IMG/VR virus record: IMGVR_UViG_3300024518_003532
Span: 1-20,164 of that record
DNA: 20,164 bases
Direction: 5' to 3' (one strand)
Source: a virus
How positions within the stretch are numbered: position 1 is the stretch's first letter; the number at the start of each line of letters is the position of its first letter. This document shows positions 8,261-20,097 of the stretch, piece after piece. A program made the position numbers and the translations under genes. The notes below the pieces were generated by a model. The model had not been told where the DNA came from. It ran no database searches and saw only the letters and a program-made list of their open reading frames with translations.

Positions 8261-8335
8261 TGGTCCGGGTGGAGAGATTCGAACTCCCGACCCCCTGGTC
8301 CCAAACCAGGTGCGCTACCACTGCGCCACGCCCGG
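8261..8335 (-). tRNA. tRNA-Pro (TGG anticodon)
   Basis: Cloverleaf with acceptor CCGGGCG, D arm GCGC/GCGC, anticodon stem CCTGG/CCAGG with loop TTTGGGA (anticodon TGG, reads CCA), T arm GGGAG-TTCGAAT-CTCTC, A73 and an encoded CCA. The acceptor has one C-A mismatch at pair 6-67. Last gene of the six-tRNA array. Confidence 0.93.
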
Positions 8336-8340
8336 AAAAC

Positions 8341-8415
8341 TGGAGCGTCCTGGGAGATTCGAACTCCCACCCCTTGGTTGGAAGCCAAGAGTGCTGCCGT
8401 TGACACCAAGGACGC
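8341..8415 (-). tRNA. tRNA-Gly (TCC anticodon)
   Basis: Acceptor GCGTCCT/AGGACGC, anticodon stem CTTGG/CCAAG with loop CTTCCAA (anticodon TCC, reads GGA), T arm GGGAG-TTCGAAT-CTCCC, U73 as in bacterial tRNA-Gly, and encoded CCA. A 5-base spacer (GTTTT on the minus strand) separates it from each neighbour. Confidence 0.95.
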
Positions 8416-8420
8416 AAAAC

Positions 8421-8496
8421 TGGAGCCGGCGAGAGGACTCGAACCCCCAACCTCCTGATTACAAAACAAGAGCTCTACCAATTGAGCTACACCGGC
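8421..8496 (-). tRNA. tRNA-Thr (TGT anticodon)
   Basis: Acceptor GCCGGTG/CGCCGGC (imperfect), D arm GCTC/GAGC, anticodon loop TTTGTAA (TGT, reads ACA) on a stem with one T-T mismatch next to the loop, T arm GGGGG-TTCGAGT-CCTCT, encoded CCA. Only one base separates it from the next tRNA. Confidence 0.9.
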
Positions 8497-8497
8497 T

Positions 8498-8590
8498 TGG
8501 AGGAGGGTGCAGGGATCGAACCCACGAACGGCTCTTCACCGCATCAACTGTTTTCGAAACAGCAGCCTTACCAGACTCGGCCAACCCTCC
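8498..8590 (-). tRNA. tRNA-Ser (CGA anticodon)
   Basis: Class II tRNA with a long variable arm. Acceptor GGAGGGT/ACCCTCC, D arm GGCC side, anticodon loop TTCGAAA (CGA, reads TCG) on stem GCTGT/ACAGT, T loop GTTCGATC, encoded CCA. Position 73 is U, whereas bacterial tRNA-Ser usually has G73. Confidence 0.92.
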
Positions 8591-8600
8591 TGGAACTGTT

Positions 8601-8692
8601 TGGAGGAGGGAGCAGGATTCGAACCCGCAAGAGCCTGACTAGACTCTGCTACGCCTTAGCAGGGCGACGCCTTACCGTTCGGCCACCCCTCC
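8601..8692 (-). tRNA. tRNA-Ser (GCT anticodon)
   Basis: Class II tRNA: acceptor GGAGGGG/TCCCTCC, anticodon loop CTGCTAA (GCT, reads AGC/AGT), variable arm with AGAG/CTCT stem, T arm GCGGG-TTCGAAT-CCTGC, encoded CCA. The outer parts closely resemble the neighbouring tRNA-Ser(CGA), including U73, suggesting duplication and divergence. Confidence 0.92.
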
Positions 8693-8733
8693 CCGATTGT
8701 AGATGATGATGTCATGGTTGACTCCGCCAAAAC

Positions 8734-8810
8734 TGGTGGACCGTGTAGGATTTGAACCTACGACATCCGCGTTGCAAACGCGGCGCTCTGCCAGCCTGAG
8801 CTAACGGCCC
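8734..8810 (-). tRNA. tRNA-Ala (TGC anticodon)
   Basis: First gene of the array. Acceptor GGGCCGT/ACGGTCC (one G-U), D arm GCTC/GAGC, anticodon stem CCGCG/CGCGG with loop TTTGCAA (TGC, reads GCA), T arm GTAGG-TTCAAAT-CCTAC, A73 and encoded CCA. Its first base is the G of the portal gene's TAG stop codon, so tRNA processing would cut the portal mRNA exactly at its end. Confidence 0.95.
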
Positions 8811-14030: not shown

Positions 14031-14539
14031 CCGAACTCGAGCGAGCACACTTCCAGGAGCGCCCGGACAGCAGCCCACGGCTGGACGCAATCGACTACTG
14101 GCCGAAGTTCTCCGCTACGGCCCTGATTGAGTACCGTGAGGACCGGATCATTGACGAAGAGGAGCGCCGCCTACGAGAATCCCGGCAAGCTGACGACTTC
14201 GACAGCGACCGTTCCCCGTCAGCCCGTCGCCGCCGTGGCGAGAGCGCTCTATCCGAGCCAGACAATTACGTTGGAAACACGCCCAGGAGAACGACGATGA
14301 GTATAATCAGAATCACATGGCAGATCGACGACGGCTACGCTGGAGGAGGTTCCAGGCCTCACGAGTTCAGTCTCGACCTTGACAACTTCGAACCAGGAGA
14401 CACCATCGAGGACCTCGAAGAGGAACTCTTCGAGTACGTCGATACTGAATTCTCGAACAAGGTTAGTTGGGTCTGCGACATACCCGCATTCGCCCGCCAA
14501 ATCCACGAGGCGCTGAAGGCTCAAGACGATGGAGACTGA
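14027..14539 (+). CDS. Hypothetical acidic protein with a likely internal start
   Basis: This 170-aa protein starts by ATGA coupling. Its first ~90 residues are charged (EYREDRIIDEEERRLRESRQ, then RSPSARRRRGESA). The remainder (from MSIIRITWQIDDGYAGGG) is a compact, acidic alpha/beta domain. The second half begins at an in-frame ATG (14297) with AGGAG about 7 bases upstream, so a separate 80-aa product may be made; alternatively these are two fused genes. It overlaps the methyltransferase start by 11 bases. No family recognised. Confidence 0.55.
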   Translation: MTELERAHFQERPDSSPRLDAIDYWPKFSATALIEYREDRIIDEEERRLRESRQADDFDSDRSPSARRRRGESALSEPDNYVGNTPRRTTMSIIRITWQIDDGYAGGGSRPHEFSLDLDNFEPGDTIEDLEEELFEYVDTEFSNKVSWVCDIPAFARQIHEALKAQDDGD

Positions 14540-15783
14540 AGACCATGTGGCTCTACGTACCATCAGCTTGTGTTCCGGAGGCGCCGGACTGGAACTCGGA
14601 GTCCGGCTTGCCGGACGAGTCGACGGTTTCCGCTCTCGCGTCGTCTGTTACGTGGAAAGGGAAGCTTACGCAGCCGAGATCCTGGTTAAACGCATTCAAG
14701 AAGGCCTCTTGGACGAGGCGCCTATCTGGAGTGATCTCCGCACGTTCGACCCTCAACCGTGGCGCGGAAAGGTGGATCTCGTCACTGGCGGATACCCGTG
14801 TCAACCGTTCTCCTCTGCCGGTAGACGAGCGGGGGCCGACGACCCCCGCCACCTCTGGCCCGTCATCTCAGAGATCATTCGGGTGGTCGAGCCCGGAATC
14901 TGCTTCTTCGAGAACGTCGACGGACACCTCTCCCTCGGTTACCGAGAAGTCCGACAAGAGTTGGAAGGCATGGGCTACTGCGTTACGGAAGAGGTCGTTA
15001 GCGCGGCGGAAACAACTGCGCCACACCTTAGAAAGCGACTCTTCATCATGGCCGACCGCCACCGTGACGGACCACAAGGCGGGAGCGGAGGGATACTCGA
15101 CCGAGAGCGGACGCCTCAGCAGCACGACGCTGACGGACGCGATCAAACAGTGGGGAACTCCCCGCGTGAGCGCCTACAGGGCGGCAGAGGGCGGGCTACA
15201 ACGCCACCACAGAGAGAGGGTGAAAGACCAATCGATACAATGGCTGACCCCGGCGACTCCGAGCGGCGGACGCAGCGTGCCAGCCTCGACAGTGGAGAGC
15301 CACGGCTCGACCCAGGAAGGCAAGCGCCAGGTGGGCCTGGAGAGCCAGACGAAGCACTGGCCGACGCCAGCCGCCATGATGAACGATGGCGAGACCTTCG
15401 CGACCTTCGACAGCCGGGCGGAGAAGCTGAAGGAGAAGAAGATCAATGGCAATGGTGCGGGACGGCTATTGGGTCCGGAATCAACCCGGTTTACCCTCCA
15501 GGCCCTCAGCAGCACGACGCCTGGACCGGAGTGGCTCCAAACCTACTCCCTGCTCTCCCGCGTGTGGGAATCCTTCGAACTTCGCAAGAGTTTGAGGCTG
15601 AACCCGGATTTCACCGAGTGGTTGATGGGCTGGCCTCCTGGCTGGAGTCGGCTTGGGACTGTCGAACCGAGCGACTACAACTACTGGGAAACGGCGTCGT
15701 CCCGCTTGCTGCAGCGCTTGGTTGGATTCTATGCAGCCGACAACTCTTCCCAATCAACGAACCAAAGCGCTGACCCATCATAA
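14467..15783 (+). CDS. Overlapping alternative frame through the methyltransferase gene
   Basis: A 438-codon frame, +1 relative to the methyltransferase, stays open through that whole gene and ends 10 bases after it. A plausible start is the internal ATG at 14545 rather than the first ATG. It contains repeated Trp-Pro-Thr motifs (WPTATVTD ~195, WLTPATPSGG ~259, WPTPAAMMNDG ~298) and LNPDFTEWLMGWPPGW (~378-393). Such WPTP and NPxFxEWLMGxPxGW sequences are, to my recollection, common in phage proteins annotated beside or as methyltransferases. In this gene the WPT motifs are the second reading of (M/L)AD-x in the methyltransferase. Whether it is translated, alone or by frameshift, is unknown. 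Confidence 0.4.
   Translation: MGLRHTRIRPPNPRGAEGSRRWRLKTMWLYVPSACVPEAPDWNSESGLPDESTVSALASSVTWKGKLTQPRSWLNAFKKASWTRRLSGVISARSTLNRGAERWISSLADTRVNRSPLPVDERGPTTPATSGPSSQRSFGWSSPESASSRTSTDTSPSVTEKSDKSWKAWATALRKRSLARRKQLRHTLESDSSSWPTATVTDHKAGAEGYSTESGRLSSTTLTDAIKQWGTPRVSAYRAAEGGLQRHHRERVKDQSIQWLTPATPSGGRSVPASTVESHGSTQEGKRQVGLESQTKHWPTPAAMMNDGETFATFDSRAEKLKEKKINGNGAGRLLGPESTRFTLQALSSTTPGPEWLQTYSLLSRVWESFELRKSLRLNPDFTEWLMGWPPGWSRLGTVEPSDYNYWETASSRLLQRLVGFYAADNSSQSTNQSADPS
14529..15773 (+). CDS. C5-cytosine DNA methyltransferase
   Basis: This 414-aa enzyme would transfer a methyl group from S-adenosylmethionine to carbon 5 of cytosine. Motif I is ISLCSGGAGLELG (residues ~12-24), motif IV GGYPCQPFSSAG with catalytic Cys91, motif VI FFENVDGH (~127-133), motif VIII HLRKRLFIMA (~166-175) and motif X LLGNGVVPLAAALGW (~385-399). 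The long Gly/Arg/Asp-rich stretch between VIII and X is the variable target-recognition region. No restriction enzyme gene is adjacent, so it is an orphan methylase, probably protecting phage DNA against host restriction. It lies last in the early plus-strand operon. Its whole length is also open in a second frame (separate entry), which probably explains the odd composition of the variable region. Confidence 0.88.
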   Translation: METEDHVALRTISLCSGGAGLELGVRLAGRVDGFRSRVVCYVEREAYAAEILVKRIQEGLLDEAPIWSDLRTFDPQPWRGKVDLVTGGYPCQPFSSAGRRAGADDPRHLWPVISEIIRVVEPGICFFENVDGHLSLGYREVRQELEGMGYCVTEEVVSAAETTAPHLRKRLFIMADRHRDGPQGGSGGILDRERTPQQHDADGRDQTVGNSPRERLQGGRGRATTPPQREGERPIDTMADPGDSERRTQRASLDSGEPRLDPGRQAPGGPGEPDEALADASRHDERWRDLRDLRQPGGEAEGEEDQWQWCGTAIGSGINPVYPPGPQQHDAWTGVAPNLLPALPRVGILRTSQEFEAEPGFHRVVDGLASWLESAWDCRTERLQLLGNGVVPLAAALGWILCSRQLFPINEPKR

Positions 15784-17597: not shown

Positions 17598-17900
17598 ATG
17601 TGCACATCGGAGTCAGTCGAACGTGCGAAGTTGCTCCTAGAGGAAGGCTTGCGGGGGACTTTGCCGTGGGGCGTTGCCTCTTCGTCAGCCATTGAAGCTC
17701 TTCGCCAACTACCTGACGGCCTGCGGATAGTCCCGCTTGGGCTCGAGATCCAGCGCCTCTATAACGCTGGCTCCCCTGCTACAAAACTCGCTCTCCTCAA
17801 CCAACTGAAAATTGTCGTCGCCGGCCTGGAGGACCACCTGTATGGGCGCACCCGCAAAGAACAAGAACTACCGTCGAGAGCTCACGATTCAAGCGCTTAA
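17598..17900 (+). CDS. Hypothetical protein preceding RecT
   Basis: This 100-aa helical protein (SVERAKLLLEEGLRG, SSAIEALRQLPDGLRI, LALLNQLKIVVAGLEDHLYG) starts at an ATG with GGAGGAG 5 bases upstream, an excellent ribosome binding site. It overlaps the RecT start by 59 bases in a different frame, so the two are translationally linked. No family recognised. In recombination operons this place is often taken by a nuclease or accessory factor, but the protein is too small for a RecE- or YqaJ-type exonuclease. Confidence 0.6.
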   Translation: MCTSESVERAKLLLEEGLRGTLPWGVASSSAIEALRQLPDGLRIVPLGLEIQRLYNAGSPATKLALLNQLKIVVAGLEDHLYGRTRKEQELPSRAHDSSA

Positions 17901-18903
17901 CGAACTGTACGTTACAAAGAAAGGGCTCGTCGAGTCCTACCTTCCCAAGCACATCAACCAAGACCGCATGCTGCGGCTGATCTACTCAGCCTTCACCAGC
18001 ACACGAGGCCTGAGTTCCTGCTCGGCCCTGTCGATCGTCAACTCGATCATGCACGCCGCCCAGGTCGGCCTGGAGTTCAACACCCTCCAAGGCCATGGGT
18101 GGATCATACCACGCTGGAACAGCCGTGCCGGCGTCATGGAAGCCAGTTTCCAGCCCGGGTACCGTGGTCTCATTGATCTCGCCTACCGCTCCAACCTCGT
18201 CACGGCGGTCGCCAGTGGCGTCGTCAAGGCTCGCGACGACTTCGAGTTCGACGACGGCACCCAGCCAACCATCACCCACCACTGGGACCTCACGAAGGAC
18301 CGTGGCGACTGGGTCGGCGCCTGGGCTCGAGTCGATGTCAAGGATGGCCGCTCGATCATCGAAGTGATGCAGCGGTCGGCTATTGAACTGATCCGCGACA
18401 CCTACGCCCCTCGCAAGAAGAGCGGCGAGATGGTCGGCCCTTGGATCACCCACCCTGATGCGATGATCCGAAAGACCGCCGCGAAACGCCCTCTGAAGTT
18501 CGCCCCGGCTAGCACCGAACTCGCCAACGCCATCGGCCTCGACGACGTCCTAGAGTCCGCAGAGCCGATCCCCACGCTCGTCAACGTTGAGGACTTCCAA
18601 GGGACAGACGTCTCCAAGGAAGACCTGCTCGACGCGACCGAGCCAATCCAGATCACCGGCTCGAAAGCAGCCGAGGACGAAGTACTCCAGGACAAGTTGG
18701 AGCAGACCGGCATGCCCAAGAAGCAGGCCTGGGCGGAAACGATCTTCAAGCGGCTCGGCAAGAAGCAGCAGGCCGCCCTGAAGGCGTACGCCGCTGTTGA
18801 CGGCAAGGGAACGGCAATCGACCTACTGGCCGGGTGCGACCATCCCGAAGCCGCCCAGCAACTCGTTGATACAGCCACGGAGGTGATGAATGCCACCAAG
18901 TGA
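17842..18903 (+). CDS. recT: RecT family single-strand annealing protein
   Basis: This 353-aa protein shows the RecT core. Helical N-terminal segments (LPKHINQDRMLRLIYSAF) lead to AAQVGLEFNTLQGHGWIIPR (~72-91) and ASFQPGYRGLIDLAYRS (~101-117), the conserved 'GLEPN---G-AYLIP ... FQ-GYRG-I-LA-RSG' order. A central beta region includes DGRSIIEVMQRSAIELIRD and KTAAKRPLKFAP. The C-terminal ~90 residues are an extra acidic, then helical tail. RecT proteins anneal complementary ssDNA during recombination-dependent replication. The start at 17842 has GGAGG about 10 bases upstream. Likely partners are the SSB and NinB-like proteins. No cognate 5'-3' exonuclease is seen in the window. Confidence 0.88.
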   Translation: MGAPAKNKNYRRELTIQALNELYVTKKGLVESYLPKHINQDRMLRLIYSAFTSTRGLSSCSALSIVNSIMHAAQVGLEFNTLQGHGWIIPRWNSRAGVMEASFQPGYRGLIDLAYRSNLVTAVASGVVKARDDFEFDDGTQPTITHHWDLTKDRGDWVGAWARVDVKDGRSIIEVMQRSAIELIRDTYAPRKKSGEMVGPWITHPDAMIRKTAAKRPLKFAPASTELANAIGLDDVLESAEPIPTLVNVEDFQGTDVSKEDLLDATEPIQITGSKAAEDEVLQDKLEQTGMPKKQAWAETIFKRLGKKQQAALKAYAAVDGKGTAIDLLAGCDHPEAAQQLVDTATEVMNATK

Positions 18904-19162
18904 AGACTACTACGACCAAGATCATTGGGAGTCCGTAAAGCGGCGCCGAGTTCATCGGATAGCGGCACAAGAGGACGCTCGCCTAGTTCGTGAGCGAATT
19001 CAATCGGAAGGGTTCGCTCGCCGAGCGACTCCAGCCGAGCTACTGAATGAGATCATCGGTTACCTTGGGGCTTCTCGCCACACTCCCGACCAAATTGACC
19101 GGGAGAATATCGCCGAGGCCCTGAAGCTCTGCCACTTGCTATCAAAAACCCTGAATCCGTGA
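18890..19162 (+). CDS. Hypothetical helical protein
   Basis: This 90-aa protein is charged and helical (SVKRRRVHRIAAQEDARLVR, TPAELLNEIIGYLGASRHTP, ENIAEALKLCHLLSKTL). Its ATG overlaps the end of RecT by 14 bases and follows GGAGGTGATGA. It ends in a GTGA overlap with the replication gene. No family recognised; context suggests a replication or recombination accessory protein. Confidence 0.6.
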   Translation: MPPSEDYYDQDHWESVKRRRVHRIAAQEDARLVRERIQSEGFARRATPAELLNEIIGYLGASRHTPDQIDRENIAEALKLCHLLSKTLNP

Positions 19163-20097
19163 TCGACGAACTCATCAGATCGAAAGGCCAAGCCCTGCGG
19201 GTATTCATGGCGCTCTACGTCCGGGAGCCGCAGTCCGTTCACCAGTTGACGGAGTCGACCGGACTTGGCAGAACCGCCATCCTTAACGCAATTGGTGAGC
19301 TAAAAAGACTAGATTTGATACATGCTCAAATCACCCCATATTTGCTCAAGTGGGCCGCCAGGGCGGACTGTATGAGTCCGCCTGGGTGGACCGCAGTCCG
19401 CCTACGCGGACCAAACCCAGAACGTCTAGGGGTCCACGAGGACGGCCTCCCTACTCAAATCTCCTCACCGGGCCGCCAGGGCGGCTCCCTAGAGGCCGCC
19501 AGGGCGGACTCTGGTGTACCTCCAGTTGAGCCAGCCTCCGGGTCGGTTCCACCTTCCGGAAAACCCCCCTCTCCTACCCCCCCTATAGTCCCCCCCGTCC
19601 TCTCCCCCCTTTTGGCACCAGAATCACCACCGGAAGACCTGTTCGACCGGTTCTGGCGCCAATGGCCTCGGAAGGTCGCCAAGGCGGACGCCAAGAAGGC
19701 CTGGGGGAAGCTCAACCGAACCGATCAGCGGGCGGCTCTCATGACCCTCAAGGCCTGGGTCGCCCACCTGAAGACCCGGGAACTCGACAAAGTGCCCTAT
19801 CCGGCCACATTCCTGCGCCGTGGGGACTGGCAAGAGGCTCCGCCCTCCCAGGACTCCTCCGAGCCAGACAAAGGCTTAGAACGGCCCCCAGAGCCCGAAT
19901 GTCCAGCCTGCAAGGGAACCGGGTGGGTGGAGGATCTCGCCGGCGGCGTCCGACAGTGTCAGCACGTCCTGCTGGCTTCCAAGCGAGCACGCCAAGCCCT
20001 CGGAGACCATGACGAGGAGCCACACGCCAGAGACGGCCCTACTACGATCGCAGAATCAGGTCTTGTAGATGTTTTGAAACAGAAGGTGAACAGCTAA
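19159..20097 (+). CDS. Replication initiation protein, lambda O / DnaD-like organisation
   Basis: The protein has 312 aa and a GTG start coupled to the upstream gene. Residues 1-60 form a winged helix-turn-helix (SVHQLTESTGLGRTAILNAI, GELKRLDLI). A low-complexity linker, Pro/Gly/Ser-rich (~70-158), follows. Then comes LFDRFWRQWPRKVAKADAKK with KVPYPATFLRRGDWQE (~161-226), a domain common in phage replication proteins. A C-terminal zinc motif CPACKGTG ... CQH (~248-269) completes it. It would recognise the origin and recruit a helicase loader. The coding region for the linker contains repeated and inverted sequences (19353-19510), as in lambda O, where the origin iterons lie inside the gene. 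Function is by analogy of domain order. Confidence 0.7.
   Translation: MIDELIRSKGQALRVFMALYVREPQSVHQLTESTGLGRTAILNAIGELKRLDLIHAQITPYLLKWAARADCMSPPGWTAVRLRGPNPERLGVHEDGLPTQISSPGRQGGSLEAARADSGVPPVEPASGSVPPSGKPPSPTPPIVPPVLSPLLAPESPPEDLFDRFWRQWPRKVAKADAKKAWGKLNRTDQRAALMTLKAWVAHLKTRELDKVPYPATFLRRGDWQEAPPSQDSSEPDKGLERPPEPECPACKGTGWVEDLAGGVRQCQHVLLASKRARQALGDHDEEPHARDGPTTIAESGLVDVLKQKVNS
19353..19510. repeat. Iteron-like repeat cluster, candidate replication origin
   Basis: Three copies of GGCCGCCAGGGCGG followed by ACT or CTC lie at 19353-19369, 19471-19487 and 19494-19510. Each contains CCGCC-AG-GGCGG dyad symmetry. Between copies 1 and 2 are the inverted repeats GCGGACT-gtatg-AGTCCGC (19363-19381) and GTCCGC-ctac-GCGGAC (19396-19411), so the octamer GGCGGACT or its complement occurs four times. 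A relatively AT-rich stretch (about 19297-19350) borders the cluster. Location inside a replication-initiator gene matches lambdoid origins. Coding bias for Arg/Ala/Asp may contribute. Confidence 0.5.

Follow-up and report, generated by a model that had tools for sequence, protein, structure and literature searches.

Does the gene of the replication initiator at one end of this phage fragment also contain, within its own coding sequence, the origin at which the initiator acts? The whole stretch of DNA that was analysed (the window, 20,164 bp) is a virus record representing a fragment of the genome of an uncultured tailed phage, and a first-pass annotation had proposed an iteron-type origin inside this gene. 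As judged from sequence, the region is very probably a theta-type replication origin, and the cluster of iterons within the initiator gene is real and probably functional, which would place the replication origin of an uncultured phage to within approximately 250 bp. The phage appears, like lambda, to carry its origin in the gene of the protein that recognises it, with GC-rich sites of its own. In-gene iteron origins are a kind already known, and the initiator belongs to a family distinct from lambda O; the same arrangement seems to recur in many distantly related phages of this family, which is unrelated to lambda O.

Genomic setting of the candidate origin

The genes of the window encode terminase, portal, a P22-like capsid, SSB, RecT, an Orf/NinB-like protein and a C5-cytosine-specific DNA methyltransferase (14529-15773, + strand; PF00145, E 1.4e-26). 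The RecT-like annealase gene (17812..18903, + strand; PF03837, E 6.8e-38) lies upstream of the initiator gene, rep (19159..20097, + strand). Six tRNA genes (Pro-tgg, Gly-tcc, Thr-tgt, Ser-cga, Ser-gct and Ala-tgc) form an array at 8261-8810 on the - strand, and the ORFs on the + strand over this array are probably tRNA-derived artefacts. Another virus record, IMGVR_UViG_3300024520_000436 (26,137 bp), matches the window at 100% where the two were compared (terminase; 3,091 bp to ~16,090) and adds a further 10 kb of the virus on the left side of the window; the rep gene is absent from that contig.

The rep gene ends 67 bp before the end of the window. GC skew is negative across the available 30 kb without a switch, the candidate origin being located within 1 kb of the end of the contig. 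No DnaA box (TTWTNCACA) occurs in the window, which therefore lacks this mark of a DnaA-dependent origin. A single-sequence search of viral contigs identified no close relatives of Rep or RecT. Planctomycetota were considered as the host and rejected, as 392 genomes gave three weak matches to the C-terminal domain of the initiator, none of them a near relative.

An initiator with a disordered linker

The initiator (replisome organiser) was recognised by its PHROG matches, an AlphaFold2 model and the alignment of its C-terminal domain. Through this domain it matches PHROG 270, 9327 and 9474 (replication initiation/primosomal) with E values of 1.5e-13 (phrog_270) to 1.9e-8, and both the profile match and the alignments identify the domain as the FxxFWxxYPRK...PATWLNxGRWEDE type of phrog_270, with the motif F..FW..WPRK...ATFLRRGDW in the window protein.

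The first-pass annotation had located the candidate origin in codons of a linker between a winged helix-turn-helix (wHTH) and a C-terminal domain, and the AlphaFold2 model agrees. The protein consists of a wHTH-like N-terminal domain (residues ~10-57), a disordered linker (~71-157) and a helical C-terminal domain (161-226). In the model (20 sequences; overall confidence low, mean pLDDT 61.5, pTM 0.32), the N domain has a wHTH-like fold of helices 11-22, 27-34 and 38-50 and a strand 54-57 (block pLDDT at most 83), residues 71-157 are mostly disordered, and the C domain is helical and confident (blocks mostly at pLDDT 84-95). Residues 10-56 also match MarR_2, a MarR-type winged helix, at E 0.0037, under the Pfam cut-off, and a sequence search of solved structures gave no relative of the initiator. 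The protein is thereby predicted to join a DNA-binding N domain to a replisome-recruiting C domain, with helicase recruitment assigned by family annotation. The tail of Rep (19885-19970) encodes CPACKGTGW...RQCQH, which resembles a small zinc-binding motif (Cys/His) and is not seen in the aligned relatives.

Iterons within the linker codons and the AT-rich stretch beside them

Five imperfect palindromes of ~16 bp, at 19353, 19376, 19396, 19471 and 19494, are found in the part of the initiator gene that encodes the linker. Their axes are 23, 20, 75 and 23 bp apart, so that they form two groups on either side of a 75-bp gap; this spacing between groups is atypical and counts against an origin. 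The three near-identical 17-base units pointed out by the first-pass annotation are iteron 1 (19353..19369, + strand; GGCCGCCAGGGCGGACT), iteron 5 (19494..19510, + strand; GGCCGCCAGGGCGGACT), which is identical to it at 17/17 positions, and iteron 4 (19471..19487, + strand; GGCCGCCAGGGCGGCTC), which is an 82% match and is read in a different frame from the other two. Two further copies share this register, one at 19376 (GTCCGCCTGGGTGGAC) within iteron 2 (19375..19392, + strand; AGTCCGCCTGGGTGGACC) and the other at 19396 (GTCCGCCTACGCGGAC) within iteron 3 (19395..19412, + strand; AGTCCGCCTACGCGGACC). Every unit is in itself an imperfect dyad with 6-7 of 8 pairs, of the form GTCCGCC-NN-GGCGGAC or GGCCGCC-AG-GGCGGAC.

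Iterons 1 to 5 are read in frames 2, 1, 0, 0 and 2, and encode WAARAD, SPPGWT, VRLRGP, GRQGGS and EAARAD, respectively; therefore, the repeat exists at the level of DNA and not of protein. The initiator coding sequence contains at least three near-identical repeats beyond what coding constraint explains: the in-gene direct repeats were equalled in none of 300 protein-preserving codon shuffles (p=0.001 with 999 shuffles), and the 13-base iteron core has 11 matches with at most two mismatches, against 1.7 expected. Over 30 kb of the virus, no other non-tRNA repeat cluster scores as high as the iterons, two segments of the tRNA array coming next, and iterons 2 and 3 are the only tandem array (TRF) in the window. 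The anatomy of the locus, and a constraint on its DNA that extends over all three reading frames, are matters of observation.

When the window was ranked by a PWM, the five iterons scored 17.4-20.7 bits, followed by a possible outlying sixth site (19674..19689, + strand; GGTCGCCAAGGCGGAC; 17.1 bits), which falls in conserved C-domain codons and may be due to chance, and then by an unrelated site at 14601 (12.8 bits); the PWM was built from the iteron units themselves, and the informative part of this ranking is therefore the gap to the remaining matches. A weak, doubtful iteron-like site at 19432..19447 (+ strand; GTCCACGAGGACGGCC) scored 11.9 bits, less than the best unrelated site.

The adjacent AT-rich stretch of the first-pass annotation was confirmed at 19279..19350, 5′ of the iterons. 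No other 66-nt segments in the 20 kb are as AT-rich as those found here, the one at ~19284 being in the top 0.02% for A+T, and the AT content of the stretch was reached by none of 5000 recodings with the codon usage of the virus itself. The composition of this stretch is that of the unwinding region that adjoins the iterons of an in-gene origin, and it may be tentatively annotated as a DNA unwinding element. At such an origin, the wHTH domain, probably as a dimer, would bind the iterons to form a nucleoprotein complex, after which the AT-rich segment 19279-19350 would melt and the helical C domain would recruit the replicative helicase or a helicase loader. The disordered linker would accommodate the residues that the iterons impose, and the location of the sites within the gene would keep the initiator and its cognate origin linked.

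Comparison with known origins

In lambda and the Stx phages, the origin is in the middle of gene O, each iteron is an inverted repeat, and an AT-rich region is present; in-gene origins have been proven in these phages (PMC7466680) and for oriL of the Bacillus phage SPP1 (PMC6316719). The first-pass annotation described the layout as a copy of that of lambda O/ori, and this holds. As in lambda and the Stx phages, the candidate origin lies inside the initiator gene between a wHTH-type N domain and a C-terminal region, and as in lambda, the iterons are imperfect dyads of ~18 bp adjoining an AT-rich region, with the same statistical signature (lambda O, the positive control of the codon-shuffle test, gave p=0.004, and lambda P gave 0.55). 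The four annotated iterons of lambda start 20, 24 and 23 bp apart. In contrast, the iterons of the window are composed of GC-rich GTCCGCC/GGCGGAC elements in two groups with a 75-bp separation. The likeness also does not extend to the side of the AT-rich segment, which is 3′ of the iterons in lambda and 5′ of them in the window, or to the protein. Membership of the lambda O family was rejected: the phage_O N-terminal signature (TIGR01610) is absent, the window protein having no NCBIfam match to it (lambda O as control, E 5.4e-39), Pfam Phage_rep_O has no match either, blastp against lambda O gave nothing significant (E of at least 2.7), and lambda O belongs to PHROG 277/2365 rather than 270/9327/9474 and has a different C domain.

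SPP1 also resembles the window: its oriL consists of direct repeats and an AT-rich unwinding element within gene 38, the gene of the initiator G38P (PMC6316719), and G38P, a replisome organiser, is likened to the window initiator by layout. SPP1 differs in having a second origin ~13 kb away. The pri-rep-ori modules of Gram-negative PICIs have iterons and an AT-rich region beside a dedicated Rep (PMC6092414), as does the window, but the PICI ori is 3′ of the rep gene and its iterons are on both sides of the AT-rich region.

The homologues of the C domain are proteins of phrog_270/9327/9474, such as those of Arthrobacter phage Andrew (gp47), Pseudomonas phage MR15 and prophages, which are 27-41% identical to it in the alignment. 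Arthrobacter phages Andrew and RedFox have linker repeats 22 bp apart inside the rep gene, and RecT is encoded near rep in Arthrobacter phages Andrew, LittleTokyo and Galaxy. These proteins differ from that of the window in their N domains, which are HTH_36, DUF1376 or unassigned, and in the sequence of the repeats, which is specific to each group.

Repeats in the initiator family

The C domain of 14 homologues was aligned and used to scan GTDB genomes (80 loci), which, together with phage records and a small number of viral contigs, gave a set of 102 rep genes; 197 other ORFs from the same loci served as controls. With codon shuffles, significant in-gene repeats were found in 57 of the 102 initiators and 14 of the 197 control ORFs at p<=0.05, and in 43 and 6, respectively, at p<=0.01. 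The sample is phylogenetically non-independent, with many Pseudomonas prophages, and several loci are closely related, so that these counts are not independent events; some of the positives reflect AT-rich or simple sequence with repeats of short period and not clear iterons. Approximately 45% of the family members have no significant in-gene repeats at the sensitivity of the shuffle test used. The repeats cluster 60-240 nt ahead of the C-domain codons, frequently with spacings of 21-24 bp, but also of 15, 18, 30 and 36 bp, which arise partly from short-period repeats. Their sequence differs by lineage: Arthrobacter phages Andrew and RedFox have ACGGGGTG with a 22-bp period and Pseudomonas phage MR15 has GCACGAAGCGTGCAC, whereas an Algicola locus has GCGAAATCGCCTAAACCA, a Crossiella locus CCGTGACGTCACGG, a Bacilli MAG TATAGACAAAAATGTC and a Gemmataceae MAG GTGCGGACACAA. 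The C-domain alignment was also used to scan IMG/VR, where 67 of the 80 loci formed one cluster, which was excluded from the linker test because its representative is a short C-domain ORF without a recognisable DNA-binding domain. In many of the IMG/VR loci L037-L116, the C domain seems to be encoded by a short ORF of its own that lacks a DNA-binding domain (124 aa in L076).

The repeats also follow the N domain. A repeated 8-mer was shared by 59 of 71 pairs of initiators with N domains at least 75% identical, by 78 of 269 pairs with N domains 35-75% identical, and by 41 of 3938 pairs without detectable N-domain similarity. Shared ancestry accounts for part of this sharing, and repeated words were therefore compared with single words of the same linkers: in the 35-75% pairs, the fraction present in the partner linker was 0.226 for repeated words and 0.044 for single words (a fivefold difference), an excess of which part may come from repeated words being commoner or lower in complexity. 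This tracking of repeat words with N domains fits recognition of the repeats by the N domain, without being proof of it. None of the initiators sampled has an N domain detectably related to that of the window initiator, which leaves the iterons of the window without a close relative for comparison. The iteron-type origin first proposed for the window is nevertheless supported by its C-domain relatives, whose genes have similar repeat clusters in the corresponding part, and by the tracking of repeat sequence with the N domain.

The most useful outcome may be a positional rule for the whole family, applicable to raw sequence: where an initiator has a C domain of the FxxFWxxYPRK type, the origin should be sought 60-240 nt before the codons of that domain. 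A limited literature search found no such origin survey for this initiator family. The link between N domain and repeats could provide pairs of initiators and iterons for studying the co-evolution of a DNA-binding domain and its target within one gene.

Alternative explanations

The main rival to an origin, an improbable one, is that the dyads are operators at which the wHTH domain autoregulates the initiator gene without any role in replication initiation. Dyad sites would suit a dimeric wHTH regulator, and a weak promoter-like site is present in the AT-rich stretch (19315-19342); this match is only 9/12, however, and two such matches were found in the region against 0.5 expected. The sites lie downstream of the gene start, 190-350 nt into the gene, and at comparable depth in family members, whereas the precedents in lambda and SPP1 are origins (PMC7466680, PMC6316719), and regulation could in any case coexist with origin function. 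Hairpins formed in rep mRNA by the GC-rich dyads, controlling translation, decay or termination, are a very improbable explanation. Every unit is an inverted repeat that could form a stem, but in the family the repeats are direct and regularly spaced, several of them being not obviously palindromic (ACGGGGTGMACG of the Arthrobacter phages, GTGGGGCAGGAG of locus L171 and CCCCTCCTGACAAAA of locus L030), their sequence tracks the DNA-binding domain, and no + strand terminator was found in the region.

It is just as improbable that the units are copies of a mobile palindromic (REP/RPE-like) element. The disordered linker would tolerate insertions of GC-rich palindromes, but viral contigs have the 17-mer in 13 unrelated coding contexts, as a single copy in each contig and never clustered, good matches in the window are clustered at the iteron region alone, and the sequences that relatives have at this location are unrelated. 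Least credible of all is that codon or amino-acid bias produced the repeats as a by-product of a low-complexity linker: the linker is rich in Pro, Ala and Arg and has AARAD twice in frame, but the codon-shuffle null was rejected (p=0.001), the sites occur in three frames, and such repeats are rare in control ORFs.

A G-quadruplex motif beside the iterons

Just 3′ of the iterons, and additional to what the first-pass annotation recorded, four C-tracts (6, 7, 7 and 6) on the + strand at 19564-19609, separated by loops of 6-7 nt, constitute the sole G-quadruplex motif of the window, on the - strand. C-tracts of at least five arose in 0.2% of codon shuffles (p=0.0022) and in 0.02% of recodings with the codon usage of the virus (p=0.0002), figures that are optimistic because the motif was picked after the sequence had been seen. 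It is unlikely, though worth stating, that this tract is a second working part of the origin, one that lambda does not have. The - strand fold would then form once the duplex opens and would help to hold the bubble or to position the helicase, a part that would suit an origin with GC-rich initiator sites. Across the family, G-quadruplex motifs are weakly enriched, occurring in 8 of 102 rep genes and 4 of 195 flanks (p=0.026), and some of them are the iterons themselves.
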